A stretch of 64,000 nt of DNA, from contig CACNWB010000001.1 in NCBI GenBank assembly GCA_902624095.1, positions 1-64,000 on the forward strand. Reading direction: 5' to 3'. Shown piece by piece: positions 17,308-49,190 of this stretch. The notes beneath the pieces were generated by a model. That model was not told where the DNA came from. It made no database searches and worked only from the letters and a program-made list of their open reading frames with translations. This DNA is from an uncultured PS1 clade bacterium (GTDB lineage Bacteria; Pseudomonadota; Alphaproteobacteria; RS24). The translations under genes and the position numbers were made by a program. Numbering within the stretch: the first letter of the stretch is position 1; each line of letters opens with the position of its first letter.

Positions 17308-18624
17308 ATGAGTAGGTTAGGGCAAATTAAGTCAAAGCGGGCGGTCATCGGCATTGTCGGTCTTGGATATGTTGGCCTACCTTTGGCGCAGGCATTTTGC
17401 CAGCAAGGTATAAAAGTTGTTGGTTTTGATATTGATCAAGAGAAAATAAACTTAATTGAACAGGGCAAGTCCTATATACACCACATTGGTGATGAGGTGA
17501 TTGGCGCAATGCGCTCGGACGGGCTGTTCGAAGCAACCTCAAATTTTCCAAAAATTGCAGAAGTTGATGTCATCATCATCTGTGTTCCGACGCCGCTGTC
17601 AAAACATAGAGAGCCAGATCTTGGACCTGTTCTGGGAACTGGCGAGGCAATCATGCCACACCTCCAAAAAGGCCAATTGGTGGTTTTGGAGTCAAGTACC
17701 TATCCCGGCACTACCGATACTGAACTTGCCAATGTTCTCGAGAAGTCTGGTCTGAAAAAGGACGAAGATTTTTATCTTACCTATTCGCCGGAGCGTGAAG
17801 ATCCTGGAAATGAGACTTTTTCAACCTCAACCATTCCGAAAATTGTTGGTGCTGACACACCGGAAGCACGCGAAATGGTGGCAGCCGTTTATGAAGGTGT
17901 TATCAGCAAAGTTGTTCCGGTTTCAAGTTCGCGAACGGCTGAGGCTATCAAACTAACGGAGAACATTTTCCGCTCTGTTAATATTGCCTTGGTCAATGAA
18001 TTGAAAGTAATTTTTGACGCCATGGATATTGATGTGTGGGATGTGATTGACGGCGCAGCGACCAAGCCTTTTGGGTTCATGCCATTTTATCCGGGGCCTG
18101 GCTTAGGCGGGCATTGCATCCCTATTGACCCGTTTTACCTGACCTATAAGGCGCGCGAATATGAGGTCCCGACACGCTTCATTGAGTTGGCTGGTGAGAT
18201 TAATGCTAAAATGCCACAATTGGTCGTTGGCAAAACGGCACAAGCTCTGAGCCTAATTTCGCAAAAAGCCCTCAATGGCGCAAACATTCTTATCGTCGGC
18301 ATGGCCTATAAAAAAAATGTCGACGACATGCGCGAAAGCCCATCTCTGATTCTGACCGAGTTATTAGAGTCTGAAGGAGCCCACGTGGCGTATCATGATC
18401 CATTTCTGCCGATCATTCCACATACGCGGGAGCATGACGAGCTTGCAGGTCGTGAAAGTGTTGATCTAACTCCTGAAATCGTTTCGGGATTTGATGTCGT
18501 GCTGATCAGCACAAATCATGATGGCGTGGATTACCAATTGCTCGCAGACGACGCTAAAATTATTGTCGATACAAGGAATGCCATGAAAGAATTTCAAGGC
18601 CGAGCGGTCGTGGTGAAGGCGTAA
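17308..18624 (+). CDS. wbpA: UDP-N-acetyl-D-glucosamine 6-dehydrogenase (WbpA type)
   Basis: A 438-residue nucleotide-sugar dehydrogenase. NAD domain IGIVGLGYVGLPLAQAF, VIIICVPTPL, catalytic Cys in GPGLGGHCIPIDPF, and the C-terminal UDP-binding domain with AYKKNVDDMRESP. The HHIGDE and FEATSNF features fit UDP-HexNAc rather than UDP-glucose dehydrogenases. It would make UDP-GlcNAcA, the first step towards UDP-GlcNAc3NAcA. The next three genes encode the rest of that route and overlap it in series. Confidence 0.9.
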   Translation: MSRLGQIKSKRAVIGIVGLGYVGLPLAQAFCQQGIKVVGFDIDQEKINLIEQGKSYIHHIGDEVIGAMRSDGLFEATSNFPKIAEVDVIIICVPTPLSKHREPDLGPVLGTGEAIMPHLQKGQLVVLESSTYPGTTDTELANVLEKSGLKKDEDFYLTYSPEREDPGNETFSTSTIPKIVGADTPEAREMVAAVYEGVISKVVPVSSSRTAEAIKLTENIFRSVNIALVNELKVIFDAMDIDVWDVIDGAATKPFGFMPFYPGPGLGGHCIPIDPFYLTYKAREYEVPTRFIELAGEINAKMPQLVVGKTAQALSLISQKALNGANILIVGMAYKKNVDDMRESPSLILTELLESEGAHVAYHDPFLPIIPHTREHDELAGRESVDLTPEIVSGFDVVLISTNHDGVDYQLLADDAKIIVDTRNAMKEFQGRAVVVKA

Positions 18625-19595
18625 TGGCTAAAGTCGCAGTCATAGGATGCGGACACTGGGGCAAGAACCTTGTCCGAAATTTCGCTGAACTAGGTGCATT
18701 AGTTGCGATTAGTGACCTCAACAGTGAATTAGCTGCTCAATTTAGCATTCAGTTCAATTTGCCTGCGCTTGATTTTGACGCCATTTTGGTAGGTGATTGC
18801 GATGGTGTCGTTATCGCGGCGCCTGCGCCCTTGCATGCTTCATTGTCGAAAAAAGCACTTGTAGCGGGCAAGCATGTTTATGTCGAAAAGCCCTTAGCCA
18901 TGACATTGGAAGAGGCTGATGTGATGATTGAGGCGGCGGCCCGTGCTGACCGGCAGTTAATGGTTGGACATTTGTTGCAATATCATCCTGTGTTTGCTCA
19001 CTTACGCGATATGGTGAGCCAAGGCGAATTGGGTGCGTTGCAATATGTCTATTCCAATCGCTTGTCATTGGGGAAAGTGCGGTCGGCGGAAGATGCAGTC
19101 TGGAGTTTTGCGCCACATGATATCTCCATGATTTTGTCTCTGGCAGGTCAACAGGTAAAAACGGTCCGTTGTGAAGCGTCAGATATTTTGCAAAACGGCA
19201 TAAGTGATACGGCTAACATCCATATCTCCTTTGAAAATGGCTTAAAGAGCCATGTGTTTTGTTCATGGCTACATCCTTACAAGGAACAAAAGCTAGTCGT
19301 TATTGGTGATAAGGGTATGGCAATTTTCGACGATAAAATGGACTGGGATCAAAAATTGGCCGTTTATGACCATGTAATTGACATGGATGAAACCCCGCCA
19401 GTACCTCATAGGTCAGAAGTCAAATACGTGAAAGTCCCCCAAGGCGAACCCTTGAAGGCAGAATGCCAATACTTCCTGGATCTAATAGACGGCGAAGCAG
19501 ACCCGCTGACAGACGGTGCTGAGGGTCGCCGCGTATTGCAGGTCCTTGCTGCCGCAAGTGCTTCCATTGAAAGCGGCGAAACAATATATGCCTGA
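18624..19595 (+). CDS. wbpB: UDP-GlcNAcA 3-dehydrogenase (WbpB/WlbA type, Gfo/Idh/MocA)
   Basis: A 323-residue Gfo/Idh/MocA protein. [20 protein letters not shown] matches the WlbA/WbpB N-terminus, [10 protein letters not shown] is the family signature, and [10 protein letters not shown] contains the catalytic-region His. It shares one base with wbpA and 8 bases with the acetyltransferase gene. In the known pathway it oxidises C3 of UDP-GlcNAcA, giving the 3-keto substrate for the aminotransferase. Confidence 0.9.
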
Positions 19596-20181
19596 TTACT
19601 CAGAACGTTTTGATGGTGTTTTCGTGCATGAGTCTTCGTATATAGATGCTGGTGTTGAGATTGGCTCTGGCACAAAGATTTGGCACTTCTGCCACATACT
19701 CGGTGATACGCGGATAGGTAATGATTGCTCTATGGGCCAAAACGTTGTGGTAGGGCCCAATGTGACGATTGGCAATAATGTTAAAATCCAAAATAATGTT
19801 AGTGTTTATGATGGCGTGACGCTCGAAGATGGTGTGTTTTGTGGACCCTCTTGTGTTTTTACTAATGTCCATAATCCGCGCTCAGAAATTATTCGCAAAG
19901 ATGAATATCGAAAAACCGTTGTGCGCCGCGGGGCGTCAATTGGAGCCAATGCTACAATCGTCTGCGGGCATGATTTGGGTGCTTATTGCTTTATTGCAGC
20001 TGGTGCGACGGTAACTAAAGAAGTGCCGCCGCACGCGCTTATGGCCGGAACACCGGCCAAGCGCATCGGTTGGATGAGTAAGGCTGGCGGTCGCTTAGGC
20101 GACGACTTGGTTTGCCCAGAGGACGGCACTAAATACCGTCAAATTTCGGACAATCAGATTGAGGAAATAGATAGTGAGTGA
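19588..20181 (+). CDS. wbpD: UDP-2-acetamido-3-amino-2,3-dideoxyglucuronate N-acetyltransferase (WbpD type)
   Basis: A 197-residue left-handed beta-helix acetyltransferase. Hexapeptide turns run from [16 protein letters not shown] to [20 protein letters not shown], with the family-typical insertion [13 protein letters not shown] and the end [12 protein letters not shown]. It acetylates the 3-amino group made by the WbpE-type aminotransferase. I chose ATG 19588 because it starts [16 protein letters not shown] like the family. ATG 19516 lies deep in wbpB. Confidence 0.92.
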
Positions 20182-21295
20182 ATATTCCGTCCCAGTCCAA
20201 TTTATAGATTTAGCTGCGCAGCAAGCAATAATTCGTGATGATATTGATGCTGCCATTGCGCGCGTGCTTGACCACGGCCAGTACATTATGGGGCCTGAGG
20301 TCAAACAGTTTGAAAATGATTTAAAGGTCTATACTGGTGCACACCATGCGCTGAGCTGTGCCAATGGAACGGATGCGCTGACATTGGTTTTGATGGCTTG
20401 GGGGATAGGCCCGGGTGATGCGGTGTTTGTGCCTAGCTTTACTTATGTTGCATCAGCTGAAACACCAGCGCAGCTCGGAGCGACGCCTTTTTTTGTTGAT
20501 GTATTAGAAGACAGTTTCAATATTAACCCTGCCAGTTTCGATCAGGCCATCGAAGAAGCTAAAAGACTTGGTCTTCGTCCAGCGGTCGTAATTGCAGTTG
20601 ATTTGTTTGGACAGCCCGCTGATGTCGATGCAATTTCTGGCATTGCGCGATTAGCTGATGTTAGAGTATTGATTGATGGTGCGCAAAGTTTTGGGGCATC
20701 CAGTCACGGCAGAAAAGTTGGCACAATGGGTGATGCCACAACCACCAGTTTTTTCCCTGCAAAACCTCTCGGATGTTATGGAGATGGGGGTGCGGTCTTT
20801 ACGCAAGATGATGAACTAGCTGAACTTATCAACTCAATTCGACTGCATGGTAAAGGTAGTGAGAAATATGATAATGTGCGTATCGGTTCAAATTCTCGTC
20901 TTGATACCATACAAGCCGCCATTTTAATTGAAAAATTAAAAATTTTTCCTGATGAATTGATTGCTCGTGAAAAGGTCGCGAAAGCCTATGAAGCGGGGCT
21001 TTGTAATACTTACAAAACCCCACGAATAGCTCCAGGTCTAAGAAGTACTTGGGCGCAATATACACTAATTCTAGAAAATCGTGACATTGTTCAGGCTAAG
21101 TTGAAAGACTATGGTATACCTACTGTAGTTTATTATCCAAAAGCACTGACACAGCAAAATGGTTATTCCCGTTTCCCAATTGTGTCAACGGGAGTTAAGG
21201 TGTCCGAACATTTAGCCGAAAAAGTTTTGAGTTTACCGATGCATCCATATTTAGAAAAAAAGAATATTAACGAAATAATTTCGAAGATCGTTTGA
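20174..21295 (+). CDS. wbpE: DegT/DnrJ/EryC1 aminotransferase (WbpE type)
   Basis: A 373-residue PLP sugar aminotransferase with a GTG start overlapping wbpD by 8 bases. Motifs: [33 protein letters not shown], the Asp of [12 protein letters not shown], and the PLP Lys in [16 protein letters not shown]. It aminates the 3-keto UDP-sugar produced by the WbpB-type enzyme. With wbpA, wbpB and wbpD it completes UDP-GlcNAc3NAcA synthesis. Composition becomes AT-richer towards its 3' end, where the low-GC stretch of the island begins. Confidence 0.92.
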
Positions 21296-22957: not shown

Positions 22958-23701
22958 TTGTCATTAAATTTAGAAGATACGAGCAGTTATAATTTTTGGT
23001 CACAGCAAGCTGCCAGCCTCCATCGTTATGATACCGAGAAATTTTACCGAGAGAAGGCTGACGAACACGTTCATCTTATGAGAATAAATGATCGCGAGGT
23101 GGGGGCAATTGACTTAGGCTGTGGAGCTGGAGAATTGCTGCAGCATTTAATGTCTAAAGTATATATTAAGACCGCATTAGACTATTCGGAGTCAATGCTT
23201 TCAAGAGCAAGATCACGTTTAGGGAACGATGCACCAGAATTAAAGAATGCAGATGTATTTGATTACCTTAGTGATACCGAAATACCAGTCTGGCTAACTA
23301 CAGGCGCACTAAATCAATATTTAAGCCCTGCCCAGATAACCAACTTAATGAAAATTTTCCAAGCGAATTTAAATGCTCAGTCATTCTATTTGTTCGACTG
23401 TGTTGATCCAATCCGATATGATTTGTTGAGCTTTGGTATCAGTTTTAACCCAGAGGACATGGTTACTGATAAATTACCCGTGTATAAGCGTTTATCTAAG
23501 TATTTGCGTCGAGTCCATTTGCTATTCCGAATGATTAATAAGGACTCAAAAGATTTTAGTTACTTAGGCTCGCCATCAATGGGATATGGATACCTGCCTA
23601 AATTTTGGTTGAAGTTGGGCAATGATTTAGGTTTATCAATCCAGATAGCCAGCTCGCGACATTATGAATATAGGTATCATGTCATCTTTAATAAAATCTA
23701 A
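22958..23701 (+). CDS. SAM-dependent class I methyltransferase
   Basis: About 247 residues. The SAM-binding motif I is AIDLGCGAGELLQHL, followed by ALDYSESMLSRAR and the motif IV-like VWLTTGALNQYLSP. I chose the TTG at 22958 because AGGAG lies 7 bases upstream; TTG at 22943 is also in frame. It probably methylates a sugar or an intermediate of this locus. It overlaps the FemAB-like gene by about 20-40 bases. Confidence 0.8.
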   Translation: MSLNLEDTSSYNFWSQQAASLHRYDTEKFYREKADEHVHLMRINDREVGAIDLGCGAGELLQHLMSKVYIKTALDYSESMLSRARSRLGNDAPELKNADVFDYLSDTEIPVWLTTGALNQYLSPAQITNLMKIFQANLNAQSFYLFDCVDPIRYDLLSFGISFNPEDMVTDKLPVYKRLSKYLRRVHLLFRMINKDSKDFSYLGSPSMGYGYLPKFWLKLGNDLGLSIQIASSRHYEYRYHVIFNKI

Positions 23702-24671
23702 TACTAATGCACATGAACGCAGGCATCGTTATCGTCAGCATTCAGATTATACGCTGGAGCTGCCCTTATTTAGTAAGGGATGGTGGCTTGATGCAGCTGC
23801 TGGGGAAACGAACTGGGATGCTGTATTTGTTGAAAAAGGCGGAAACATAATTGCGTCAATGCCTTTTGTAATTAGACGGTCGAAAGGCTTTGTTAAGCTG
23901 ACGCAACCAGTCCTGACGCAGGCTCTCGGACCATGGATGTCCTCTAGTACTGCTAATTATGCCAAAACGCTTCAGCGCGAGAAAGAATTGTTAACAGCCC
24001 TTTTTAATAAATTACCCAAACATCACGTGTATTCACAAAATTGGCATCATCAGCAGACAAATTGGCTTCCTCTACATTGGCAAGGATATGAACAAACTAC
24101 ACGCTACACCTATCGTCTTCCAGATATTTCAGACGAACATTATCTCTGGACAAATTTTTTAGAAAATATACGTAGAGAAATAAGAAAAGCGAAAAATCGA
24201 TTTTCGTTAATCGTTCGTGATGACCTTTCAATTGACGATTTCCTTGACCTTCATGAGCAAACGTTTTCTCGGCAGGGCAAAAAAATACCTTATTCTAGGG
24301 AACTGGTAAGAAATATTGACTCAGCTTGTTTGCAGCGTAATTCCAGAAAGATACTTATTGCTGAAGATAATGAGGGTAAAAGGCACTATGGCGTCTACAT
24401 TGTATGGGACGAAAATACTGCTTACTATTTGATGGGAGGAAGCAATCCCGTTTTTCGAACTAGTGGGGCTGCAAGCCTGTGCATGTGGGAAGCTATTCGT
24501 TTTTCATCGACTATTGCGAGTAGTTTCGATTTTGAAGGTTCCATGCTTGAACCTGTAGAGCGATTTTTTAGGTCTTTTGGAGCAAGGCAAACTCCGTATC
24601 ACAACGTTTCATTTGTGTCTTCAAACTTTCTGAAGATAATTCTTTTTTTAAAAAACGTCACACATGATTAG
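23664..24671 (+). CDS. FemAB/GNAT-like acyltransferase
   Basis: A 335-residue protein resembling FemAB-like GNAT proteins of exopolysaccharide loci. It has WDAVFVEKGGNIIASMPFVIR, a central NIRREIRKAKNRFSL helix, and the C-terminal acetyltransferase-like core AYYLMGGSNPVFRTSGAASLCMWEAIRFS. These transfer acyl or aminoacyl groups. An alternative start is ATG 23679. It is flanked by a methyltransferase and a deacetylase, suggesting a sugar-decoration module. Donor and acceptor unknown. Confidence 0.75.
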   Translation: MNIGIMSSLIKSNTNAHERRHRYRQHSDYTLELPLFSKGWWLDAAAGETNWDAVFVEKGGNIIASMPFVIRRSKGFVKLTQPVLTQALGPWMSSSTANYAKTLQREKELLTALFNKLPKHHVYSQNWHHQQTNWLPLHWQGYEQTTRYTYRLPDISDEHYLWTNFLENIRREIRKAKNRFSLIVRDDLSIDDFLDLHEQTFSRQGKKIPYSRELVRNIDSACLQRNSRKILIAEDNEGKRHYGVYIVWDENTAYYLMGGSNPVFRTSGAASLCMWEAIRFSSTIASSFDFEGSMLEPVERFFRSFGARQTPYHNVSFVSSNFLKIILFLKNVTHD

Positions 24672-24676
24672 ATAAA

Positions 24677-26065
24677 ATGACTATTCGTCGATTTACAAAC
24701 GAAAATTTCCAGGAGGCTGAATTGGAATTATCGGCTTCTGGTATGCGATGGATAGAATCGGTTTTGTCTGAGCGATTTGGACACATGTGGCGCTTGGCTC
24801 GGTATGAAGAAGGTATTGAGTTGCGTTTGAGGGGTGCTAATGGCTCCATCCTGTTCGACACCGAATGTTCTGCTTTTGCTGTAATTGGCACGTCGGAGCT
24901 TCCTTATTCGTCTTGGGATGCAGAAAATGAGGGATTGGAGGCAGTTTTAGGCAAGGCTCTTCCCGCGCCAGGAGTTTCGCAGATGCCATCGCCTCTCATG
25001 GAAAAAAGAAATGGAGATCACGTAATCCATTATGACATTATAGGTCTTATTTACTGGATGTTTGCTCGGATTGAGGAAATTGGACGCAAAGACCTCGATG
25101 CTCATGACCGTTTTCCAGCAACTTCATCTCATGCATATAAACACGGTTATCTGGAGCGCCCCATTATTGACGAATGGTTCCATGTTCTTGGGCAGGTAAT
25201 TCAACGTCAATGGCCGAGTATAGTATTAAAAAATCATTCCTTTGACGTGAAAGTTTCTCATGATGTGGACAGACCCAGTCGGTCAGGTTTTCTCACGCCA
25301 AAACAGCTGTCACGAGCTATAGGTTATCATGCTATTAAAAAAAACGATTTTCGAAGCGCTCTCAATACACTTTGGGTAAGAATGAATTCAAGAAAAAGAC
25401 TGCACCCTTCTGATCCATTTAACACTTTCGATTGGATTATGGATTTTTCTGAGGAGCAAGGGCTGCGGAGTGCTTTTTACTTCATTGTTAGCAATAATGA
25501 TGCTCATGACGCTGACTATCGCATGGATCACCCAGCGATACGTAGACTGATGCATAAAATAAATCAACGTGGCCACGAAATTGGCCTACACCCCAGCTAT
25601 GTTACCTATGACAAACCAGACATCCTTGCCCGTGAGGCTGATTACCTTCGTCGCATCTGCGCTAAAGAAGACATTAAACTTAATGGATTGGGTGGCCGAA
25701 TGCACTACCTGCGTTGGTGTCATCCCATTACTATGATGGCATGGGAAAGAGCAGGTATGAGTTATGATAGCTCTCTTGGTTATGCGGATTCTGCCGGTTT
25801 CCGGTGTGGCACTTGCTTCGAATACCCTGGATTTGATCCTGTATCGCAAGAAGCGCTTTCGTTACGCATTCGTCCGTTGATTGCCATGGAATGCTCAGTG
25901 ATTGACTCAGGCTATATGGGTCTAGGAAATGGGGCGGAAGCCCTAAAAAAGTTTGTTTCTCTAAAGAATACCTGTCGAGCACTTGGTGGCACATTCACAC
26001 TGCTTTGGCATAACTCAAATATTTTCGGAAATGAAAATTTATATAAGGAGGTCGTAATAGCCTGA
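24677..26065 (+). CDS. Polysaccharide deacetylase-family protein
   Basis: A 462-residue protein. The first ~180 residues form an extra domain that I do not recognise. The NodB-like deacetylase part follows: VKVSHDVDRP gives the Asp motif, GHEIGLHPSYVTY the metal-binding His pair, and FTLLWHNSNIFG the C-terminal His. No signal peptide is seen, so it probably acts in the cytoplasm, perhaps on a lipid-linked or nucleotide sugar. It starts 5 bases after the FemAB-like gene. Confidence 0.82.
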   Translation: MTIRRFTNENFQEAELELSASGMRWIESVLSERFGHMWRLARYEEGIELRLRGANGSILFDTECSAFAVIGTSELPYSSWDAENEGLEAVLGKALPAPGVSQMPSPLMEKRNGDHVIHYDIIGLIYWMFARIEEIGRKDLDAHDRFPATSSHAYKHGYLERPIIDEWFHVLGQVIQRQWPSIVLKNHSFDVKVSHDVDRPSRSGFLTPKQLSRAIGYHAIKKNDFRSALNTLWVRMNSRKRLHPSDPFNTFDWIMDFSEEQGLRSAFYFIVSNNDAHDADYRMDHPAIRRLMHKINQRGHEIGLHPSYVTYDKPDILAREADYLRRICAKEDIKLNGLGGRMHYLRWCHPITMMAWERAGMSYDSSLGYADSAGFRCGTCFEYPGFDPVSQEALSLRIRPLIAMECSVIDSGYMGLGNGAEALKKFVSLKNTCRALGGTFTLLWHNSNIFGNENLYKEVVIA

Positions 26066-26146: not shown

Positions 26147-27433
26147 TTGCGTAAAAAATTTGTATCTTCCTTTCAAAGCCAAATTATGGCTGCATTCATA
26201 ATACTTATCGTCTTAGATGGTTTGTATATAACTGATCGATTGATTGCCCTATTTGTTCCCATTAGGTATGGGCTTCTTGGATTTATACTTGCTGGATCAG
26301 GCACCTTCCTTCTGTCTAAACTTAAATTGGGCGCCATTAAAAAAAATCAGTTTTATGCAATTGTTTTTCATCTAATTTTACTGTCGTATGGTTTGTTTTT
26401 AAGCTCGATTAATGGCGGTTATGTTCTCTTCGAGTCCAGAGAACTCATGTATACCTTTCTCGCATTATTCTTAACTTTGGCATTAACTTTAGAACTCAAT
26501 CGAAATTCAATATTTTTCAATTGGTCTATCAGTAATGCGTCATCGATTAAATATTATAAGGGGCAAATAAATTTAAATTTATTTCTGATAATTTTACTGA
26601 TTATCTCTCCTTTCCTACTCTATATTTTTGACGCGGTTGAACTGCGCCCAATTCCCCGGATAAATTTCGATCTATCGGCCGCTGACGGAGGTTACTTGCA
26701 GGCTACATCAAAATTTTTTGGTTTAGGGGCTATATTGCTATTGTTCATCGCTTTGCAGGAAAAAACCCTTACGTTGAGCATCTTTTTCTTATCAATTTCG
26801 TTCGTGATGCTTGGTTTGTCCGGCCTAGGCGGAGCCAGAGGCGAGTTCCTAATTTGTATATTAGTTATGTTTTTTCTTTTGTTTAGTTTCCCGACTAGAA
26901 AAAAGAATTTGTTCTTAATCCTCACTTGTTTTGGCGCCTTATTCTATTTTTTTTCGTTCTTCGCCGAAACCCTTGATGGTTTAAAAATCGTTCAAAGGTT
27001 CTCAGTTCTTGGCTCCGGCAATTTTGGGGCTAGGGATCAATTGCTTATTCAATCCTTCCATCTTCTTGGTGAGCGGCTGGATTGCGCTCTAATTGGATGT
27101 GGCTTTAATTATTTCCAAGTTCACTTTGGCTATGGATACGGAACGTATCCTCACAATGTTTTTGCCGAGCTTTTGATTACCTTCGGTGTTCCTCTAGGAG
27201 GGGCAGTCGTGATTCTAGTTTGCATGGGCGTGGCGTTTGGATTTTTAAATTCAATCAAACGTACCCCTTTGTTTTGGGTCTTCCTCTACTTTCTAGGTAT
27301 TAATTTAAAAAGTGGTTCACTTCTCGGATTAACTTCAATACCGGTTTTACTATATTTTTCACATATAGGAATTTTCGCTACCCTGGTGCTCGGCACTTCC
27401 GTAAAGCTGGAAGGTAAAAATCAGAATGCTTGA
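26147..27433 (+). CDS. Wzy-type O-antigen polymerase
   Basis: A 428-residue protein with about 10-12 membrane helices and a large loop ending in YGTYPHNVFAELLITFGVPLGG, the pattern of O-antigen polymerase/ligase proteins (Wzy_C). The start is TTG 26147 or a later codon such as ATG 26186. In a Wzx/Wzy system it joins repeat units in the periplasm. It shares 8 bases with the HisF relic. A separate WaaL-like gene lies at 47.9-49.2 kb, so this one is better read as the polymerase. Confidence 0.8.
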   Translation: MRKKFVSSFQSQIMAAFIILIVLDGLYITDRLIALFVPIRYGLLGFILAGSGTFLLSKLKLGAIKKNQFYAIVFHLILLSYGLFLSSINGGYVLFESRELMYTFLALFLTLALTLELNRNSIFFNWSISNASSIKYYKGQINLNLFLIILLIISPFLLYIFDAVELRPIPRINFDLSAADGGYLQATSKFFGLGAILLLFIALQEKTLTLSIFFLSISFVMLGLSGLGGARGEFLICILVMFFLLFSFPTRKKNLFLILTCFGALFYFFSFFAETLDGLKIVQRFSVLGSGNFGARDQLLIQSFHLLGERLDCALIGCGFNYFQVHFGYGYGTYPHNVFAELLITFGVPLGGAVVILVCMGVAFGFLNSIKRTPLFWVFLYFLGINLKSGSLLGLTSIPVLLYFSHIGIFATLVLGTSVKLEGKNQNA

Positions 27434-27738
27434 ATCAGTTGAGTATGCAAAAAAAATTCAAGGTTTCGGCGCTGGAGAGTTGATAGTGGGTGCAATTGAT
27501 AGAAAGAGAACCGGAAAGGGTCACGATCTTGAGCTACTTAACAGTGTAGCAAATGAAGTTGACATTCCTGTGGCGGACTTGGGTGGAGATGAATTATTGC
27601 TGCATTCGGCCGACGCAAAAAATAGCATACCACTATCCGGTCTAGCGGCTGGCAACCTGTTTATATTCTACGGTAAGGATAAGGCAGTATAAATTACTTA
27701 TTCCAAATATTCAGAAATTGAAAAGTTGCTAGGTTAGG
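27426..27738 (+). pseudogene. HisF-like relic, 5'-truncated with internal stop
   Basis: The frame matches only the C-terminal ~100 residues of polysaccharide-locus HisF proteins: YAKKIQGFGAGELIVGAIDR, then GHDLELLNSVANEVDIPV and AAGNLFIFYGKDKAV. A TAA at 27690-27692 interrupts the usual AVLITY sequence; beyond it the frame continues as ITYSKYSEIEKLLG to a TAG. The first ~150 residues are missing and the catalytic GGAGS loop is altered. It lies directly before an intact amidotransferase gene. The intact HisF at 37.0 kb is the comparison. Confidence 0.83.
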
Positions 27739-27742
27739 TTTT

Positions 27743-28885
27743 ATGAAAGATAAAAATTGGCAGGTTTGCTCTCGGTGTGTAATGGATACCACCGACTGGA
27801 CGATAACATTTGATCTTAACGGCATATGTAACCATTGTTACCAATTTGACAACGTCACTTCAAAAAACTGGTTTCCAGGCGATAATGGGAAAAAATTACT
27901 AGACAATTTAGTGAGCAAAATCAAGCAAGAAGGCAGAAAAAACGAATATAATTGTATACTCGGCATGTCAGGCGGAGTTGATAGTTCATACCTAGCTTTG
28001 GTCTTGAAAGATTATGAACTTCGTCCTCTTATTGTCCATGTGGATGCCGGATGGAATAGTGAGTTGGCGGTGCACAATATCGAGCAAATTGTCAAATATT
28101 GCGGTTTTGACTTACATACGCATGTTTTAAATTGGGAAGAAATAAAGGACCTGCAGCTATCTTATCTAAAGGCGTCTTTAGCAAACCAAGACGTTATTCA
28201 AGATCATGCATTTTTTGCATCTTTATATTCTTTTGCAGTTCAGAATAAAATTAAGTATGTGTTTAATGGTGGAAATATTGCAACGGAATCCGTGTTTCCC
28301 AGCTGTTGGCATCATGCTGCCATGGATTCCATCAATCTGAAGGCAATTCATAAGAGGCATGGAGTACAAAAATTAAAAGATTATAAGACACTTAGTTTTC
28401 TTGAATATTATTTTTACTACCCCTTTATCAGGGGTTTAAATGTTATACGCCCCCTTAATTATATGCCGTATAATAAAAAAAATGCCACTCGCATTTTAAA
28501 GGAGAGAGTGGGCTTCAAAGAATACGGAAGGAAACATGGTGAGTCACGGTTCACAAAATTCTTTCAAAATTACTACCTTCCAAAGAAGTTTAATATGGAT
28601 AAGCGCAAACCGCATCTATCTAGCCTAGTTTTGTCTGGAGAAATATCTCGCAGTGAAGCTTTGCATTCCTTAAGTGAACCGCTATACGAAAAAAAGGAAT
28701 TAGATGAGGATAAGTCGTTTGTAGCTAAAAAATTGGGTATATCTAAGGAAGAATTAGAGCGTTTAGTTATGGCCCCAAAGGGGCATTACTCTCAGTATGC
28801 AAATTGGGATTCTAGGTATAAAATAATGGTGAGGACTAAATCAATAATTGAAAAAATAACTGGGAAAAAGATCAAAACATATTAG
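27743..28885 (+). CDS. N-acetyl sugar amidotransferase (WbpG/PseA family), copy 1
   Basis: A 380-residue ATP-pyrophosphatase amidotransferase. CSRCVMDTTDW and CNHC supply paired Cys, the PP-loop is CILGMSGGVDSSYLALV, and HVDAGWNSELAV and FNGGNIATES are family motifs. With HisH- and HisF-like partners these enzymes convert an N-acetyl group into acetamidino, as in P. aeruginosa O5 and legionaminic or pseudaminic derivatives. No HisH gene is adjacent and the neighbouring HisF is a relic, so it would need the partners encoded at 36.4-37.7 kb. It is AT-rich, unlike copy 2. Confidence 0.88.
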   Translation: MKDKNWQVCSRCVMDTTDWTITFDLNGICNHCYQFDNVTSKNWFPGDNGKKLLDNLVSKIKQEGRKNEYNCILGMSGGVDSSYLALVLKDYELRPLIVHVDAGWNSELAVHNIEQIVKYCGFDLHTHVLNWEEIKDLQLSYLKASLANQDVIQDHAFFASLYSFAVQNKIKYVFNGGNIATESVFPSCWHHAAMDSINLKAIHKRHGVQKLKDYKTLSFLEYYFYYPFIRGLNVIRPLNYMPYNKKNATRILKERVGFKEYGRKHGESRFTKFFQNYYLPKKFNMDKRKPHLSSLVLSGEISRSEALHSLSEPLYEKKELDEDKSFVAKKLGISKEELERLVMAPKGHYSQYANWDSRYKIMVRTKSIIEKITGKKIKTY

Positions 28886-29198: not shown

Positions 29199-30344
29199 AT
29201 GAATAATTTACATATAATTATGAATAATTTTGAAAACGAAAGCCGCGTGTTGAGACAGATTGGTAGCGTTTCTGCCTTAACAGATATCAATCACGTATAT
29301 GTTGCTTCGTTATGCGGTGAAGGGCAAATAACAGAAGAAAAAATAAACGAGAAGGCGTCAGTAAACAGGTTTCCCCTACGTTCGCAACGTTTTTCAAGGG
29401 GAGCATTAATCCAAGTTATAAAGTATATTGAATTTAGTTTCAGAATTTTTCTTTTCTATAGGACTAAAAATATAAGATTGGTCAATGTTCACCATTTGGC
29501 TTTGCTTCCTTTGGGTTATCTAATGAAGTTAAGTTGTGGCGCAAAACTGATTTATGATACGCACGAACTCGAAACAGAAACGCATAGCCTAAAAGGCATA
29601 AAGAAGAAGTTAGCCAAGGTTGTTGAGCGTATTTTCATCAAAAAAGTTGAGCATATTTTTGTTGTAAGTGAAAATATTGCCGATTGGTATGAGGAAAAAT
29701 ATGCAATTAAAAGGCCTACGGTATTAATGAATGCTCCACGTCTCACTAAGGTTAATCCGAACAATTATTTTAGACAATATTTTAGCTTAAGGCCTGATCA
29801 GAAAATTTTCTTATATCAAGGCGCCTTAATGTTCGGACGCGGTATTGAAGACATCATTGCAGCTTTCTTAACCCGAAAAGACGACACTGTTGTTGTGATA
29901 TTTATGGGTTATGGACTCCTCGAGGAACTTGTTGTGAGAGAAGCAAATAAATCCGAAACCATCTATTTCCATCCTGCAGTGAGCCCCCATCAATTATTAA
30001 AATATACGGCTTCAGCTGATTTTGGCCTGTCGTTAATTCAAAGCACCTGTCAAAGTTATTTTTACTGCATGCCAAATAAATTATTCGAATATCTTATGGC
30101 TGGTTTACCGGTACTCGTTTCCAATATGAAGGAAATGGGAGAGTTTGTAGAAAAATATGAAGTTGGCTTTGTTGCCAAGGATAGTCGAGTGGGCTCAATT
30201 AACAGTGCCGTTGACGAAGCCCTTACAGCTGACCTCGACAAACTCCAACAGAACGCTGTGAGCGCATCGATAATACATTCCTGGGAGGTGCAGGAAAAAA
30301 AGATGATTGCGGACTACCAAATGTTGCTGAACAGACTTAATTGA
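29199..30344 (+). CDS. Glycosyltransferase, GT-B fold (GT4-like)
   Basis: A 381-residue protein. The N-terminal domain includes LIYDTHELETETH, a feature of GT4-type transferases. The C-terminal donor domain includes KIFLYQGALMFGRGIEDII, FMGYGLLEELV and the CMPNKLFEYLMAGLPVLVSN acceptor/donor loop. It should add one sugar of the repeat unit at the membrane surface. Linkage and sugar are not readable. Same strand as the island, AT-rich like its neighbours. Confidence 0.87.
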   Translation: MNNLHIIMNNFENESRVLRQIGSVSALTDINHVYVASLCGEGQITEEKINEKASVNRFPLRSQRFSRGALIQVIKYIEFSFRIFLFYRTKNIRLVNVHHLALLPLGYLMKLSCGAKLIYDTHELETETHSLKGIKKKLAKVVERIFIKKVEHIFVVSENIADWYEEKYAIKRPTVLMNAPRLTKVNPNNYFRQYFSLRPDQKIFLYQGALMFGRGIEDIIAAFLTRKDDTVVVIFMGYGLLEELVVREANKSETIYFHPAVSPHQLLKYTASADFGLSLIQSTCQSYFYCMPNKLFEYLMAGLPVLVSNMKEMGEFVEKYEVGFVAKDSRVGSINSAVDEALTADLDKLQQNAVSASIIHSWEVQEKKMIADYQMLLNRLN

Positions 30345-34067: not shown

Positions 34068-35206
34068 GGGTTTTGCACCTGTGTTTATCTGCTTTCTATA
34101 TTGACGAAGCAGGATACCAAGAGAACCATCTGGTCCGTCAGCATGTGAAAGACGGTCACGAGGTTCTCGTAATTGCCTCGACCGAAACCTTCGATGGAAA
34201 AGGTGGCCTAGAGTACAAAGAGCCGGGAAGCTATTTAGGGTCTGATGGAGCAAAAGTCATCCGCCTTCCATATGTGAAATGGTTGCCACACAAAATCGCG
34301 CGAAAACTTCGTTTTCACCCTAGTGTTTATGAGTTGATGAAGGATTTCAAACCTGAGGCGATCCTTTTCCACGGTTGTGCTGGCAACGAGATTGTTACTG
34401 CAGCAAATTACGCCTCTGAAAATCCTAATGTACTTCTATATGCAGACAGTCACGAAGACTATAACAACAGCGCCCGTGGCTTTGTTTCGAAAAATATTCT
34501 GCACCGGCTGTATTACAGAAACCGGCTTCAGACCGCTTTGCCAAAGATCCGGAAAATCTTGTGCATCAATATCGAATCCATGAATTTTGTAGCGGAACTT
34601 TACGGAGTTCCAAAGAGCCGGCTCGAATTTTTTCCCTTAGGCGGGAAAATTTTGAAGCAAGGTGAGATTTCCGATAGAAGAGCGAAAACTCGCTCTCGAC
34701 ACAAGCTGCCGGACGACACGTTTGTTTTTCTTCAGGCCGGGAAGATGACATCTCGCAAAAAGCTTGCCGATAGCCTCGAAGTGTTTTCCAGACTAGAGGG
34801 CAATCATCTGAGATTTTGGATTGCGGGCCTCCTAACCGAAGAAACCAAGCACGATTTGACGGCAATGATCGAAGCAGACGCTCGGATTAGCTTTCTAGGC
34901 TGGAAAAGCCCAGAGGAACTGAACGACCTTCTGTGTGCAGCCGATGCATATGTCCAGCCTGGAACACAATCAGCAACTATGCAGAATGCTTTATGCTGTG
35001 GCTGCCCCGTTATCATTGACGATGTGCAAAGTCACAAACCCTATCTCGATGCCGGTGCAACACTCGTACGTGATAGATCAAGCCTGCTAAATGCCATGCA
35101 AGATGCGCTAAACTGGAATAATGAACAAAAACGCGCCACTGCGCTAATCTTTGCCCGTGCAAAATTGGATTACCAAAAGCTTTCCAAGCGCATTCTAAAT
35201 GCCTGA
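34064..35206 (+). CDS. Glycosyltransferase, GT-B fold
   Basis: A 380-residue protein starting [20 protein letters not shown], with a C-terminal domain containing [44 protein letters not shown] and [15 protein letters not shown]. The layout is that of GT4-like transferases. ATG 34064 overlaps the acetyltransferase stop, and its own stop shares one base with the amidotransferase start, so these genes are tightly coupled. The sugar is unknown. Confidence 0.82.
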
Positions 35207-36384
35207 TGGAAATTTCAACAATTACTGAGGCATTAAAAGTGATCCCGTTAACCCGACCTTACCAAGTCTGTACGCAGTGCGTGATGGACAATACCGATTC
35301 TGCAATCATCTTCGATGAGAATGGTGTCTGCGACCATTGCCTCGATTTCGAGCAGAACGTCAAACCTAACTGGCACACCGACGAGCGAGGGCGCGCCGAG
35401 ATTGCAAAGATCATCGACCAAGTTCGCGCTGCCGGCAAGGGGCATGACTTCGACTGCATCCTCGGCCTGAGCGGCGGGTTGGACAGTTCGTACATGCTGC
35501 ACCTTCTGGTCAAGGAGTTTGGCCTACGTCCGTTGGTGTTCCACGTGGATGGCGGATGGAATAGTGACCTAGCAGTGAACAACATCCAGATGCTGGTTGA
35601 GAAGCTGAGCCTCGATCTGTTCACTGAGGTGATCGACTGGGAAGACATGCGTGACTTTCAGCATGCCTTCTTCAAATCCGGTATATCGCAGATTGACATC
35701 CCGCAGGACCATGCTTTTGTCGCCACGCTCTATAAGTTTGCCAACAAGTACGGCGTTAAGCATATCATGAATGGCGGCAACATCTCGACGGAGTGCGTGC
35801 GCAACCCACTCGAATGGTTGTATTATGCCACGGATATGCGGTTGATCAATGATATCCGCCAGCAGTTTTGTACACGGCCTCTGACCAACTATCCGTTCAG
35901 TTCAGTTCTTTATCACAAGTTCTATCTGCGTTACATAAAACGAGTTCAGGTAGTTCGCCCACTGAACTACCTGCCTTTTTCAAAGGAATTGGCAATCAAT
36001 ACTTTGCGAACCGAATACGACTGGCAGGCCTATCCGCAAAAGCATTTCGAGAGCCGTTTTACCAAGTTCTTTGAAGGCTTCTGGATGCCGACGCGTTTCG
36101 GTTATGACACGCGCAAAGTTCAGTTCTCATCTCTGATCCTGACGGGCCAGATGACCCGTGAGGAGGCGCTCGAAAAGCTGAAGGTCCCAGCCTATGACCT
36201 GGAGTCCATTAACGACGAATTCGCCTATATTGCTAAGAAGCTAGGCATAAGTGTCGACGAATTGCGCCACTTCCATACAATGCCGATTAAGACTTACAAG
36301 GACTATCGCAACCAGGAGGCGCTCTTTAATTTGGGTGCCAAGGTTCTGCGCGCGGTCGGCTTTGAACGTTCCATCAAGCGATAA
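35206..36384 (+). CDS. wbpG: N-acetyl sugar amidotransferase (WbpG family), copy 2
   Basis: A 392-residue amidotransferase with CTQCVMDNTDS and CDHC cysteine pairs, PP-loop CILGLSGGLDSSYMLHL, HVDGGWNSDLAV and MNGGNISTECV. Together with the HisH- and HisF-like proteins encoded just downstream it should turn an acetamido group into acetamidino, as in ManNAc3NAmA synthesis by P. aeruginosa WbpG-HisH2-HisF2. The set is complete here, unlike copy 1 at 27.7 kb. Codon composition is GC-richer than in copy 1. Confidence 0.92.
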   Translation: MEISTITEALKVIPLTRPYQVCTQCVMDNTDSAIIFDENGVCDHCLDFEQNVKPNWHTDERGRAEIAKIIDQVRAAGKGHDFDCILGLSGGLDSSYMLHLLVKEFGLRPLVFHVDGGWNSDLAVNNIQMLVEKLSLDLFTEVIDWEDMRDFQHAFFKSGISQIDIPQDHAFVATLYKFANKYGVKHIMNGGNISTECVRNPLEWLYYATDMRLINDIRQQFCTRPLTNYPFSSVLYHKFYLRYIKRVQVVRPLNYLPFSKELAINTLRTEYDWQAYPQKHFESRFTKFFEGFWMPTRFGYDTRKVQFSSLILTGQMTREEALEKLKVPAYDLESINDEFAYIAKKLGISVDELRHFHTMPIKTYKDYRNQEALFNLGAKVLRAVGFERSIKR

Positions 36385-36388
36385 TATC

Positions 36389-37006
36389 ATGTTGTGCATC
36401 ATCAATTATGGCTCTGGAAATTGTTGGGCGATCGCCAATATCTGCGAGCGTGAGCAGATCCCCTATATGATCACTAGCGATCCCGAGAGTTTGGAAAAAG
36501 CTACTCATTTCCTTCTGCCAGGAGTCGGTGCCTTTGATCCAACGATAGAAACATTGCGCAAAACGGGTATCGTGACTGCTCTGGAAGCACAGGTGTTAGG
36601 AAATGGCAAGCCAATCATGGGCATTTGCGTCGGCATGCACCTGTTGGCTAATGGCAGTGACGAGGGGAAGAGCAATGGTCTTGGCTGGATACCTGGCCAT
36701 GTCACTCGCATCAACACCCGAACTTTGAATCAGCTACCACATCTGCCACATATGGGGTGGAACGAGATCAAGGGCAACCCTCAAGACTCGCTGCTGACCG
36801 GTATCGATCTTGGTTGCGGCTTCTATTTCCTGCATTCCTATTATTTCGATGCAGATGATGGATCAGACGTCGTTGCGCGGGTTCAATATGGCATGGAATT
36901 TCCTTGCATCGTACGAAGGGGTAACGTTATCGGCGCTCAGTTTCATCCGGAAAAGAGCCATTCCAACGGCACTCGCCTGATCAAAAACTTCGTAGGAGTA
37001 GCTTGA
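36389..37006 (+). CDS. hisH: HisH-like glutamine amidotransferase
   Basis: A 205-residue class I glutaminase. Oxyanion-region LLPGVGAFDPT, nucleophile Cys in GICVGMHLL, and the His and Glu of AQFHPEKS complete the triad. It supplies ammonia from glutamine to the WbpG-type amidotransferase via the HisF-like protein. ATG 36389 is preferred: the 46 residues from ATG 36251 are read from the wrong frame of wbpG. Its stop shares a base with the HisF start. It is probably the polysaccharide paralogue rather than the histidine pathway copy. Confidence 0.92.
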   Translation: MLCIINYGSGNCWAIANICEREQIPYMITSDPESLEKATHFLLPGVGAFDPTIETLRKTGIVTALEAQVLGNGKPIMGICVGMHLLANGSDEGKSNGLGWIPGHVTRINTRTLNQLPHLPHMGWNEIKGNPQDSLLTGIDLGCGFYFLHSYYFDADDGSDVVARVQYGMEFPCIVRRGNVIGAQFHPEKSHSNGTRLIKNFVGVA

Positions 37007-37749
37007 TGCTAAGATCGCGGGTTGTACCGTTTCTTTTGTTGCGGGGCAATGGGCTGGTGAAGACCCAGAAATTCGGAGACCCTAAATACGTTGGGGACCC
37101 AATCAACGCGGTAAAGATCTTCAACGAAAAAGAGGTTGACGAATTAACTCTCCTCGATATTGACGCAACGGCATCGGGCCGGCCTCCTAATATGGCATTG
37201 CTCAAGGATATCGCGGCGGAAAGCCGGATGCCCTTGTGCTATGGTGGGGGCGTTTCAGATGCTGAGACTGCTGCTCACATCATCACGTTGGGCTATGAGA
37301 AGGTTTCAGTGAGCCACGCCGCCCTCGAACGCCCTGATCTCGTGCGCGAGATGGCCGAGCGTATTGGTTGTCAAAGCGTGGTGGTTACGATCGATGTCCG
37401 CAGCGAAGGTATTTTCGGCAGTAGCTACAAAGTTTACTCGCGCAACGCCAAACTAAAACACAAGATCGACCCGGTGGTATTTGCCCGGCAGTGTTCTAAC
37501 CTGGGCGCTGGCGAGATCGTGCTGAACTCGATCGACCGCGACGGCATGATGCACGGATACGACCTTGACCTCGCGCGTAAGGTTCGTGAACAGATCACTA
37601 CCCCCATGACTGTCGTTGGTGGGGCTGGTTCTACCGACCACGTGCGGGCTCTAACCGAAGAATTGGGGCCAATCGGTGCCGGTGCTGGCAGCCTATTCGT
37701 GTTCAAAGGCAAGTACCGCGCCGTGCTAATCAGTTACGAGCGGCCTTGA
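37006..37749 (+). CDS. hisF: HisF-like protein of polysaccharide amidination
   Basis: A 247-residue TIM barrel with KFGDPKYVGDPINAVKIFNEKEVDEL, CYGGGVSDAETA, IDRDGMMHGYDLDL and VVGGAGSTDHV. The N-terminus reads RVVPFLLLRGNGLVKT: residue 11 is Leu where the catalytic Asp of true HisF lies. That fits the polysaccharide paralogue, which passes ammonia to WbpG. TTG 37003 precedes ATG 37006; the ATG overlaps the hisH stop. Confidence 0.92.
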   Translation: MLRSRVVPFLLLRGNGLVKTQKFGDPKYVGDPINAVKIFNEKEVDELTLLDIDATASGRPPNMALLKDIAAESRMPLCYGGGVSDAETAAHIITLGYEKVSVSHAALERPDLVREMAERIGCQSVVVTIDVRSEGIFGSSYKVYSRNAKLKHKIDPVVFARQCSNLGAGEIVLNSIDRDGMMHGYDLDLARKVREQITTPMTVVGGAGSTDHVRALTEELGPIGAGAGSLFVFKGKYRAVLISYERP

Positions 37750-37781
37750 ATTTCTCCTTTTTTGCTTCTAATCAATTAAAA

Positions 37782-39902
37782 ATGAGACAAATCCTTCAAA
37801 ACCTCTCCACGGGTGAGTCCCAAATTGTCGAAGCGCCCGCACCGCAGGCGCGTCAGGGCAATCTTTTAATCGACACCACCGTATCTTTGATTTCCCCTGG
37901 GACCGAGAGGATGTTGGTTGATTTCGGAAAATCCAGTCTGATCGAAAAGGCGCGCAGCCAGCCGGACAAAGTGCGGCAGGTGCTTGACAAGGTGGCAACT
38001 GACGGTTTGATGACTACCGTGGATGCAGTGCGCTCGAAACTCGGGCAACCGATCCCTCTGGGTTACTGCAATGTTGGTCTGGTTCGCGACGCAGGGGCGG
38101 AGGGGTTCAAGCCAGGTGACCGTGTCGTATCTAATGGGCCCCATGCGGATGTGGTCAGCGTACCCAAAAACCTCTGTGCGAAAATTCCCGAAAGTGTTAG
38201 CGACGAGGCTGCAAGTTTCACCGTGGTTGCCAGTATAGGGCTTCAGGGGATGCGTCTTGCTAAGCCTACCTTGGGAGAGGCTTTTGTGGTCACAGGCGTT
38301 GGCTTGATCGGCCTATTGACCGTGCAGATGTTACGCGCGCAGGGCTGCCGCGTTTTGGCCATCGATTTCGACGTGGCCAAACTGGAACTGGCACGCGGCT
38401 TTGGCGCCGAAACCTGTAACCCTGGTGCGGGGGAAGATCCTGTAGCTGCAGGAATGGCCTTTAGTCGCGGACATGGCGTGGACGGTGTGATCGTTACAGC
38501 CGCGACCAAGTCAAGCGATCCTATCACCCAGGCCGCGCAGATGTGCCGTAAACGTGGGCGTATCGTGTTGGTTGGCGTGACTGGACTGGACCTCAACCGC
38601 GCCGACTTCTTCGAGAAAGAACTGACCTTTCAGGTGTCCTGCTCCTATGGACCCGGCCGCTATGATCTCACATATGAGGAAGGTGGTCGGGATTATCCAT
38701 TTGGTTTTGTACGCTGGACTGAGCAACGAAATTTCGAAGCGGTTCTGGATATGCTGACCTCAGGAGCATTGGATGTAGGCGCCCTCATCAGTCACAGTGT
38801 GCCTTTTGATGATGCCCCGCGCGCCTATCAGTTGTTGTCATCAGACAGGGCTGCACTCGGCATTCTACTGAAATACACACAGGCCACCGAGCAGCGCCAT
38901 GTACGCGACGTTACCTTAAACGACAGAGTTCATGAGGCCTCCGGCAAAGCGGTTATAAGCTTTGTCGGGGCAGGCAATTACGCCTCTCGCATATTAATCC
39001 CGGCCTTCAAGGCCTCTGGAGCGACCCTGCACAGCATCGCCTCAGCTGGCGGGATTAGCGCGGTCGCGCATGGGAGGCGGACTGGCTTTGTGAAGGCCAC
39101 CTCAGACACCGACGGGTTAATCGCCAACCCGGAGATCAACTCAGTAGCCATCGTAACGCGGCACAACAGTCATTCCCGTCTGACAGCCCAGGCATTGCGC
39201 GCTGGCAAGCATGTGTTCGTTGAAAAGCCCCTGGCGTTGACGCATGAGGAACTCGCCGACGTAAAAAATGCGCATGCTGAGAGCGGGACGCTCCTGATGG
39301 TTGGTTTCAATCGCCGCTTTGCTCCGCAGGTTCAGACAATAAAACGGCTCTTGGGTAAGGTGACAGCGCCCAAGAGCTTTATAATGATGATGAATGCGGG
39401 CTCGATATCCGCTGATCATTGGACGCAAGATATTGCGACGGGTGGTGGGCGGATTATCGGAGAGGCCTGTCACTATATTGACCTCATGCGGTTTCTAGCT
39501 GGAGCTCCGATCACATCGGTTCAAGCTCGGCGCATGGGCGACACAAATGCGGAGTCGATAACTGAAGACAAGGCTTCTATCACCTTAGGATTCGAGGACG
39601 GGTCTTTCGGAACCATCCATTACCTTGCCAATGGCGGTGCGTCCTTCGCCAAGGAGCGGATCGAGGTCTTTGCGGCCGGACGAACCTTGCAGATCGATAA
39701 CTTCCGGAAGATGCGCGGCTTCAATTGGCCTGGCTTCAAGAAACAGAATCTTTGGCGTCAAGATAAGGGTCAGGCACTTTGCGCAACAGCCTTCGTGCAG
39801 GCAGTCGAGGCTGGCGGCGCAGCGCCGATCCCGGCGTCTGAATTGTTTGAGGTCGCCGAGGTCACCATCGACGTGGCTGAAATTCTGCGTGCCCAGACGT
39901 GA
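37782..39902 (+). CDS. Bi-domain oxidoreductase (MDR plus Gfo/Idh/MocA fusion)
   Basis: A 706-residue fusion. Residues 1-360 are a medium-chain dehydrogenase (SLISPGTERMLVDFGKSSL, VTGVGLIGLLTVQML). Residues about 370-700 are a Gfo/Idh/MocA domain (AVISFVGAGNYASRILIPAF, HVFVEKPLALTHEEL, GRIIGEACHYIDLM). Such fusions are common in EPS loci, usually beside a heparinase-like gene as here. ATG 37782 starts MRQILQNLSTGESQIVEAP like the family. Substrate unknown. Its stop overlaps the next GTG start. Confidence 0.88.
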   Translation: MRQILQNLSTGESQIVEAPAPQARQGNLLIDTTVSLISPGTERMLVDFGKSSLIEKARSQPDKVRQVLDKVATDGLMTTVDAVRSKLGQPIPLGYCNVGLVRDAGAEGFKPGDRVVSNGPHADVVSVPKNLCAKIPESVSDEAASFTVVASIGLQGMRLAKPTLGEAFVVTGVGLIGLLTVQMLRAQGCRVLAIDFDVAKLELARGFGAETCNPGAGEDPVAAGMAFSRGHGVDGVIVTAATKSSDPITQAAQMCRKRGRIVLVGVTGLDLNRADFFEKELTFQVSCSYGPGRYDLTYEEGGRDYPFGFVRWTEQRNFEAVLDMLTSGALDVGALISHSVPFDDAPRAYQLLSSDRAALGILLKYTQATEQRHVRDVTLNDRVHEASGKAVISFVGAGNYASRILIPAFKASGATLHSIASAGGISAVAHGRRTGFVKATSDTDGLIANPEINSVAIVTRHNSHSRLTAQALRAGKHVFVEKPLALTHEELADVKNAHAESGTLLMVGFNRRFAPQVQTIKRLLGKVTAPKSFIMMMNAGSISADHWTQDIATGGGRIIGEACHYIDLMRFLAGAPITSVQARRMGDTNAESITEDKASITLGFEDGSFGTIHYLANGGASFAKERIEVFAAGRTLQIDNFRKMRGFNWPGFKKQNLWRQDKGQALCATAFVQAVEAGGAAPIPASELFEVAEVTIDVAEILRAQT

Positions 39903-42998: not shown

Positions 42999-43415
42999 TT
43001 GGGGAAATGTTTGTTTTGCGCCGCATGGTACCAAAATCAGTTTCAGGCCGTTTTGGAGAATACAGATGTATTATATTTCTCGACTTTTTGTTCTGAGGAT
43101 TGGCGCCACGGTCAATCCCTGAACAATCTTGTTGATTATATGATTTCCGGGAAGCCAATCATTGGTTCTTATAGAGGATATCCGTCAATGAAAAACGAGG
43201 CAGATTGTGGTTTATTTGTCGAAGCCGAAAACCCTCAGGCGCTTTTTGAGGCTTTTGTCTTCATGCTGGAAATGCCGACCGCCGAGCGCATTAAAATGGG
43301 TCAGCGAGGATCCAAGCGGATTTTAGTAATCCGTCGCTATTTGAAGCTGGCCGAAAGCTTTTCTGACAGGCTCGATGAAGCAACTGATAAATATAAAAGT
43401 TCCGAACATGCTTGA
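42999..43415 (+). pseudogene. C-terminal remnant of a GT4 glycosyltransferase
   Basis: The 138-codon frame corresponds only to the last third of a glycosyltransferase: QFQAVLENTDVLYFSTF, then GQSLNNLVDYMISGKPIIGS, YRGYPSMKNEADCGLFVEAE and a helical end. The whole acceptor domain and the first half of the donor domain are missing, and no homologous sequence precedes it within the 53 bases after the WbuB-type gene. It still overlaps the aminotransferase start by 8 bases, preserving the old coupling. Confidence 0.8.
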
Positions 43416-49180: not shown

Positions 49181-49190
49181 AATTAAAACT

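Follow-up and report, generated by a model that had tools for sequence, protein, structure and literature searches.

An intact sugar amidotransferase gene beside the remains of its own hisF, and a HisH-HisF pair that may serve two amidotransferases, in a bacterial polysaccharide cluster

The known three-gene set for the amidination of N-acetyl sugars encodes HisH, a glutaminase, HisF, an ammonia-conducting barrel, and WbpG, an amidotransferase of the ATP-pyrophosphatase type. In Pseudomonas aeruginosa O5 (WbpG with HisH2-HisF2) and Escherichia coli O145 (WbuX, TIGR03573), whose amidotransferases share family, motifs and the presumed amidine formation on an N-acetyl sugar with those described here, there is one amidotransferase per set, whereas the locus analysed here holds two diverged amidotransferases and one set. 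It has been proven experimentally that one glutaminase subunit, TrpG/PabA of Bacillus subtilis, serves two synthase subunits. However, those synthases are unrelated to WbpG, and at the present locus it is gene counts and conservation that point to sharing. Campylobacter combines two acetamidino synthases, PseA (Cj1316c) for Pse and PtmG (Cj1324) for Leg, with one named HisH-HisF pair, Cj1315c/Cj1314c (PMC12102941; PMC13317340), which we infer the two to share. The likeness to our locus is that both synthases are encoded in one region, there a flagellar glycosylation region; unlike here, the substrates are nonulosonic acids and no hisF relic has been described. A Legionella N-acetyl sugar amidotransferase, 8WEX, displays the zinc tetracysteine and the PP-loop (PMC10607449) in a structure that contains neither HisH nor HisF. 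No structure of an amidotransferase-HisF complex was found, and the literature located held no discussion of two amidotransferases sharing a HisH-HisF pair.

The DNA analysed, hereafter the window, comprises the initial 64 kb of a contig in a 1.55 Mb assembly of 50 contigs that is 73% complete. According to the ORF list and profile matches, a polysaccharide cluster spans about 15.8 to 50 kb of the window, with the following features.

17308..21295, + strand: WbpA-, WbpB-, WbpD- and WbpE-like genes of the 2,3-diacetamido-uronic acid precursor pathway (Pfam, NCBIfam)
from 21376: flippase
23664..24671, + strand: GNAT/FemAB-type (VimA-like) transferase of the copy 1 cassette (PF13480)
24677..26065, + strand: deacetylase of the copy 1 cassette, outside NF053580 (169 bits, cut-off 440) and so VimE-like only
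26147..27433, + strand: Wzy-like polymerase upstream of the relic (Wzy_C, 27.1 bits, below the gathering cut-off of 31.7)
27426..27737, + strand: hisF2 pseudogene (the relic), 3' third only, from about residue 152 to the end (NF038364, homology past the stop)
27743..28885, + strand: wbpG copy 1, N-acetyl sugar amidotransferase (TIGR03573; ATG at 27743, stop at 28885, 380 aa)
29199..30344, + strand: glycosyltransferase of the copy 1 cassette, with homologues by wbpG elsewhere
from 30857 and from 32011: WecB and WecC, between the copy 1 cassette and the copy 2 set
35206..36384, + strand: wbpG copy 2 (TIGR03573, 313 bits)
36389..37006, + strand: hisH2, glutaminase subunit (TIGR01855, 204 bits), inside a longer ORF, 36251-37006
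37003..37749, + strand: hisF2 of the AglZ/HisF2 family (NF038364, 339 bits, cut-off 310)
37746..39902, + strand: bi-domain oxidoreductase, marker of the copy 2 cassette (Pfam)
thereafter: a heparinase-like gene, then a LegC-type aminotransferase, a dehydratase and an initiating sugar transferase

Two further observations concern the cluster itself. A second Wzy/ligase-like gene (47948-49219, - strand; PF04932, 60 bits) gives it two candidate polymerases or ligases, and a short ORF at 42999-43415, just 3' of an intact glycosyltransferase gene, resembles by eye the 3' part of such a gene and is possibly another truncated gene of the cluster.

Copy 1 was described in the initial annotation as intact but without a HisH, and so it is. 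Its 380-codon frame is uninterrupted, the protein passes the TIGR03573 (WbuX) model with 305 bits against a cut-off of 203.2, and both the PP-loop (SGGVDS) and the zinc tetracysteine (CSRC...CNHC) are kept. The AlphaFold model (pLDDT 89) finds 8WEX as its top PDB match (Foldseek rank 1, probability 1.00, E 4e-14, TM 0.62-0.64), a match in fold but at only about 16% identity. The gene has no adjacent hisH or hisF2 of its own, only a truncated, stop-bearing hisF, and tblastn revealed no trace of a hisH for it in the window. Scans for promoters, terminators and RNA folds around copy 1 gave nothing above shuffles.

The relic ORF (27426-27692, 88 aa) matches NF038364 at positions 152-237 of 248 only, with 68.8 bits against the cut-off of 310; below the cut-off, partial and internally stopped, it is not a full-length HisF2/AglZ barrel. 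A chance match is negligible (E 1.6e-22 against intact HisF). The homology to HisF sets in at about 27432, within the stop codon (27431-27433) of the Wzy-like gene, whose 3' end overlaps the relic ORF and marks the deletion junction; it meets an in-frame TAA at 27690-27692 and goes on in the same frame to the natural HisF C-terminus (ITYSKYSEIEKLLG), with a stop at 27735-27737. The earlier description of a HisF cut at the 5' end and carrying a stop is therefore borne out. The best match, to the HisF encoded on a plasmid of Massilia litorea, runs through the stop (46% identity, 102 aa). The relic departs from 11 of 28 conserved positions, against a pooled 30 of 345 in intact HisF (p=4e-5); DRDG has become DRKR, and the stop sits in a conserved Leu codon.

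The copy 2 set at 35206-37749 is complete as claimed, with wbpG, hisH and hisF all intact and hisF2 scoring as a full-length barrel. The distance of 7.5 kb given for it agrees with that between the starts of the two wbpG copies; from the end of copy 1 to the start of copy 2 it is 6.3 kb. In the assembly, 73% complete, hisH2 is the sole HisH outside the histidine genes and hisF2 the sole intact HisF2; the remaining HisH and HisF lie only in a hisH-hisA-hisF group on another contig, and a genome search detected no WbpG, HisH2 or HisF2 beyond those of the two copies. A hisH belonging to copy 1 elsewhere in the genome, which had been named as evidence against supply in trans, is thus absent from the assembled part. 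Copy 2 wbpG is 66-68% identical to the wbpG of two loci, L211 and L212, that keep the order wbpG-hisH-hisF-bidomain oxidoreductase-heparinase. Oxidoreductase genes 61-70% identical to that of the window come after wbpG-hisH-hisF in these two and in L214, and a homologue adjoins a copy 2-type wbpG in L137 and L013.

The two amidotransferases are 40% identical and, in a tree of 114 proteins, fall into different, long-separated clades. The differences in base composition and gene order noted earlier are both real: copy 1 has 36% GC, with 36-44% from the flippase to 29199 across copy 1 and its low-GC neighbours, against 50-55% in the copy 2 region, and the relic and the relatives of copy 1 have the order hisH-hisF-wbpG against wbpG-hisH-hisF in copy 2. 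A complete copy 1-type cassette, hisH-hisF-wbpG, is carried by L015/L050 (53% identity), and the Massilia litorea plasmid reads Wzx-GNAT-GNAT-deacetylase-Wzy-GT-hisH-hisF-wbpG. This order in relatives implies a deletion that stripped copy 1 of hisH and most of its hisF. In the simplest history, one deletion would have taken hisH and 60% of hisF, and perhaps also involved the glycosyltransferase, now 3' of wbpG.

The other members of the cassette have counterparts in these relatives. The VimA-like transferase is 43% identical to the deacetylase-adjacent GNAT of the Massilia plasmid, and the VimE-like deacetylase has relatives there (38%) and in Oligella ureolytica (54%), each time with wbpG in the same cassette. 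Homologues of the glycosyltransferase adjoin wbpG in Marinospirillum insulare and O. ureolytica (47%) and hisH-hisF-wbpG in the Massilia plasmid (41%); those of the WbpA/B/D/E-like genes occur in the copy 1-type clusters of the Massilia plasmid and L050. Taken together with the WbpA/B/D/E-like genes and wbpG, the genes at 23664-26065 point to a 2,3-diamino-uronic acid, perhaps with both an amino-acid and an amidine modification. WbpA/B/D/E are likewise combined with VimA- and VimE-like genes in the Porphyromonas Wbp/Vim pathway, which as described has no WbpG step (PMC7468200), a comparison in which the window's VimE match lies below the curated cut-off.

By identity, the closest relatives of copy 1 are those of M. 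insulare (64%) and O. ureolytica (61%), orphan genes in draft genomes in which no HisF2 was found. In the former, a deletion of 10 bp shifts the frame at the first zinc motif; the latter has a 33-bp deletion and lacks one zinc Cys. Between the two, the pairwise omega comes to 0.21, compared with 0.11 in the two genes that precede them. Though numbers are small, these damaged orphans fit decay where no set is present. Their synteny had suggested that the copy 1 clade has long been orphaned, an idea we rejected since the relic and the Massilia plasmid show that a set was once present and both orphans carry lesions. In Marinospirillum, a short HisF match considered as a HisF2 turned out to be a histidine-type HisF fragment. 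L013, which has wbpG genes of both types, was considered as a reciprocal case and set aside as only suggestive: its copy 2-type wbpG has no hisH-hisF ahead of the oxidoreductase and no HisH was found in this MAG, but upstream of the copy 1-type gene the contig soon breaks off.

The state of copy 1 was assessed at the 90 positions where at least 80% of twelve reference WbpG agree. Copy 1 deviates from this consensus at 11 of them, the same rate as in intact relatives (pooled p=0.64), while leave-one-out departures among the references are 8-19 with one outlier of 43; the loss rates of relic and copy 1 differ (p=0.004). Pairwise Nei-Gojobori dN/dS was saturated for copy 1, and a codon branch model of nine sequences was therefore used. 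For the branch of copy 1 its estimate of omega was 0.055, which saturated synonymous sites make a rough value, and for the background 0.025 (difference p=0.44); neutrality of the branch, omega=1, was rejected (p=0.0009). In a simulation of neutral decay, the probability of finding no stop in copy 1 was 0.004 at 0.1 substitutions per site. Relaxed selection, the other finding that was to count against the proposal, was not seen, and to judge from its sequence copy 1 shows no decay.

With a probability of roughly 0.6, we consider that copy 1 is functional and shares the HisH-HisF of copy 2 in trans after the deletion of its own partners. Copy 1 would have arrived with a lower-GC polysaccharide cassette ordered hisH-hisF-wbpG, from which a deletion reaching from the Wzy gene to about codon 152 of hisF removed hisH and most of hisF; that the loss was tolerated is best explained by the complete set of the other type, wbpG2-hisH-hisF, in the same cluster. 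The copy 2 HisH would free ammonia from glutamine and the copy 2 HisF2 would hand it on, WbpG1 docking on this HisF2 to take its ammonia, and WbpG1 or WbpG2, each on its own sugar, would use ATP to convert an N-acetyl to an acetamidino group. The substrate of copy 1 is likely, from gene content, a 2,3-diacetamido-uronic acid, the presumed product of the WbpA/B/D/E-like genes at 17.3-21.3 kb. The initial annotation held that copy 1, if active, must borrow HisH-HisF in trans. Borrowing is indeed the best-supported account, in view of the gene counts and the lack of relaxed selection, but "must" is too strong, since free ammonia or the histidine HisH-HisF could serve and a few genomes have a WbuX without any HisF2. 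Two amidinated sugars, offered earlier as an alternative to sharing, are likely to go together with it, given the long separation of the two clades, while the state of the genes, with copy 1 undecayed and its hisF decayed, makes the replacement of either cassette by the other less likely.

How amidotransferases and HisF2 are balanced elsewhere was surveyed in 387 genomes of the same class and the window's own, with 80 above the WbuX cut-off, by counting full-length WbuX against HisF2; the tallies were made by hand, drafts are incomplete and related genomes are not independent. HisF2 is present in 48 of 54 single-copy genomes and absent from the other six, whereas 18 of 22 multi-copy genomes, the window's own included, have fewer HisF2 than WbuX/WbpG. 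When two all-orphan clades of the tree (13 and 3 rows) are left aside, the shortfall is seen in 9/17 multi-copy against 2/55 single-copy genomes (p=1e-5), where 1.3 would be expected instead of nine if each copy had lost its set independently. Five of the genomes so counted (G103, G204, G359, G362 and G395) have two WbuX types around one HisH-HisF, an arrangement so conserved that they are not fully independent. In the subfamily of copies 1 and 2, a single set lies between two intact WbpG genes in L103, and two WbpG go with one set in G432 and on an Azospirillum plasmid; in single-copy genomes of this subfamily (phylum survey), the set adjoins wbpG in all 11 readable cases. Some multi-copy genomes (G154, G173, G219, G258, G629 and G714) keep one set per copy.

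Several individual loci deserve mention. Two WbuX types with a single HisH-HisF recur in five genomes at L084, L085, L087, L096 and L122, a conserved two-to-one arrangement; L122 has three WbuX and two sets. At L097:3373-6014 (G359), stops interrupt the hisF beside an intact WbuX, and the same contig carries an intact set at a distance of 15 kb, which makes this a second case of the kind. L123:3204-4374 holds a second WbpG split in two ORFs right after an intact hisH-hisF-wbpG, by its sequence a mirror case in which the extra amidotransferase decays. A WbpG lineage without the zinc tetracysteine (QCSIGVLDT...RSHYYHDY; L103:13933-15216, L106:13502-14902, L115:4773-6080) nonetheless has hisH-hisF adjacent in L115. 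Finally, a fully supported clade of 13 WbuX (L088, L090, L092, L095, L098, L102, L105, L108, L110, L114, L125, L128 and L129) never has hisH or hisF in the locus.

Among other readings, the one that survives best is that copy 1 is dying, its partners lost and the gene unused, too recently for visible lesions. The pseudogene state of its hisF, the lesions in the M. insulare and O. ureolytica orphans and the pseudogene copies beside an intact set in L123, L106 and the Massilia plasmid all agree with it; we nevertheless hold it to be unlikely, given that there was time for 11 losses and a stop in the relic, with no excess of losses in copy 1, and that omega=1 was rejected on the branch of copy 1.

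It is more doubtful still that copy 1 works without HisH2-HisF2, on free ammonia or with the histidine-pathway HisH-HisF. Some members of the family may do so, considering that G444 carries two WbpG and zero HisF2 and that the six single-copy genomes without HisF2 (G070, G111, G121, G149, G295 and G369) include three, G111, G121 and G149, of the 13-WbuX clade. However, copy 1 is not a member of that clade but groups with set-associated relatives, and 10 of the 13 genomes in which the clade occurs carry a HisF2 at another place, compared with about 19% of the surveyed genomes. Moreover, transposon hits in the WbuX, HisF2 and HisH genes of a Sphingomonas isolate came from one colony-morphology screen (PMC11340318), which suggests by analogy that the dedicated partners are needed in vivo and that the histidine HisH-HisF, presumably present in that isolate, is no replacement.

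Very improbable is a dedicated hisH-hisF for copy 1 in the unassembled part, or a junction that is an assembly artefact: the assembly is fragmented and incomplete and the junction is known from it alone, but a misjoin would not produce a degraded relic with its own stop, the whole cluster lies on a single contig, and relatives hold hisH-hisF directly 5' of wbpG, where the relic now sits. That the 88-aa relic protein is itself functional, for instance as a mini-HisF adaptor, is scarcely credible: its ATG overlaps the upstream gene's stop and would permit translational coupling, but its conserved motifs are gone, the stop removes its C-terminus and no short HisF stands beside wbpG among the relatives examined.

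Beyond this locus we propose, tentatively and at slightly less than even odds, that HisH-HisF2 is a general ammonia module shared in trans by several WbuX/WbpG of different sugar specificity, that new amidinated sugars can be acquired by gain of a WbpG alone, and that the window would be a case where the redundant set was deleted after two cassettes were combined. Amidotransferase family, reaction and three-gene set are all known already, and the locus exemplifies, in well-preserved form, a recurrent arrangement rather than a new system. If sharing holds true, surface-sugar diversity would grow cheaply, the sugar-specific enzyme being swapped while the ammonia-supplying pair is held in common, and it would be explained why many genomes have more sugar amidotransferases than HisH-HisF2 sets. 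The locus, where the intact enzyme adjoins what is left of its own partner, offers a test case for the specificity of HisF2.
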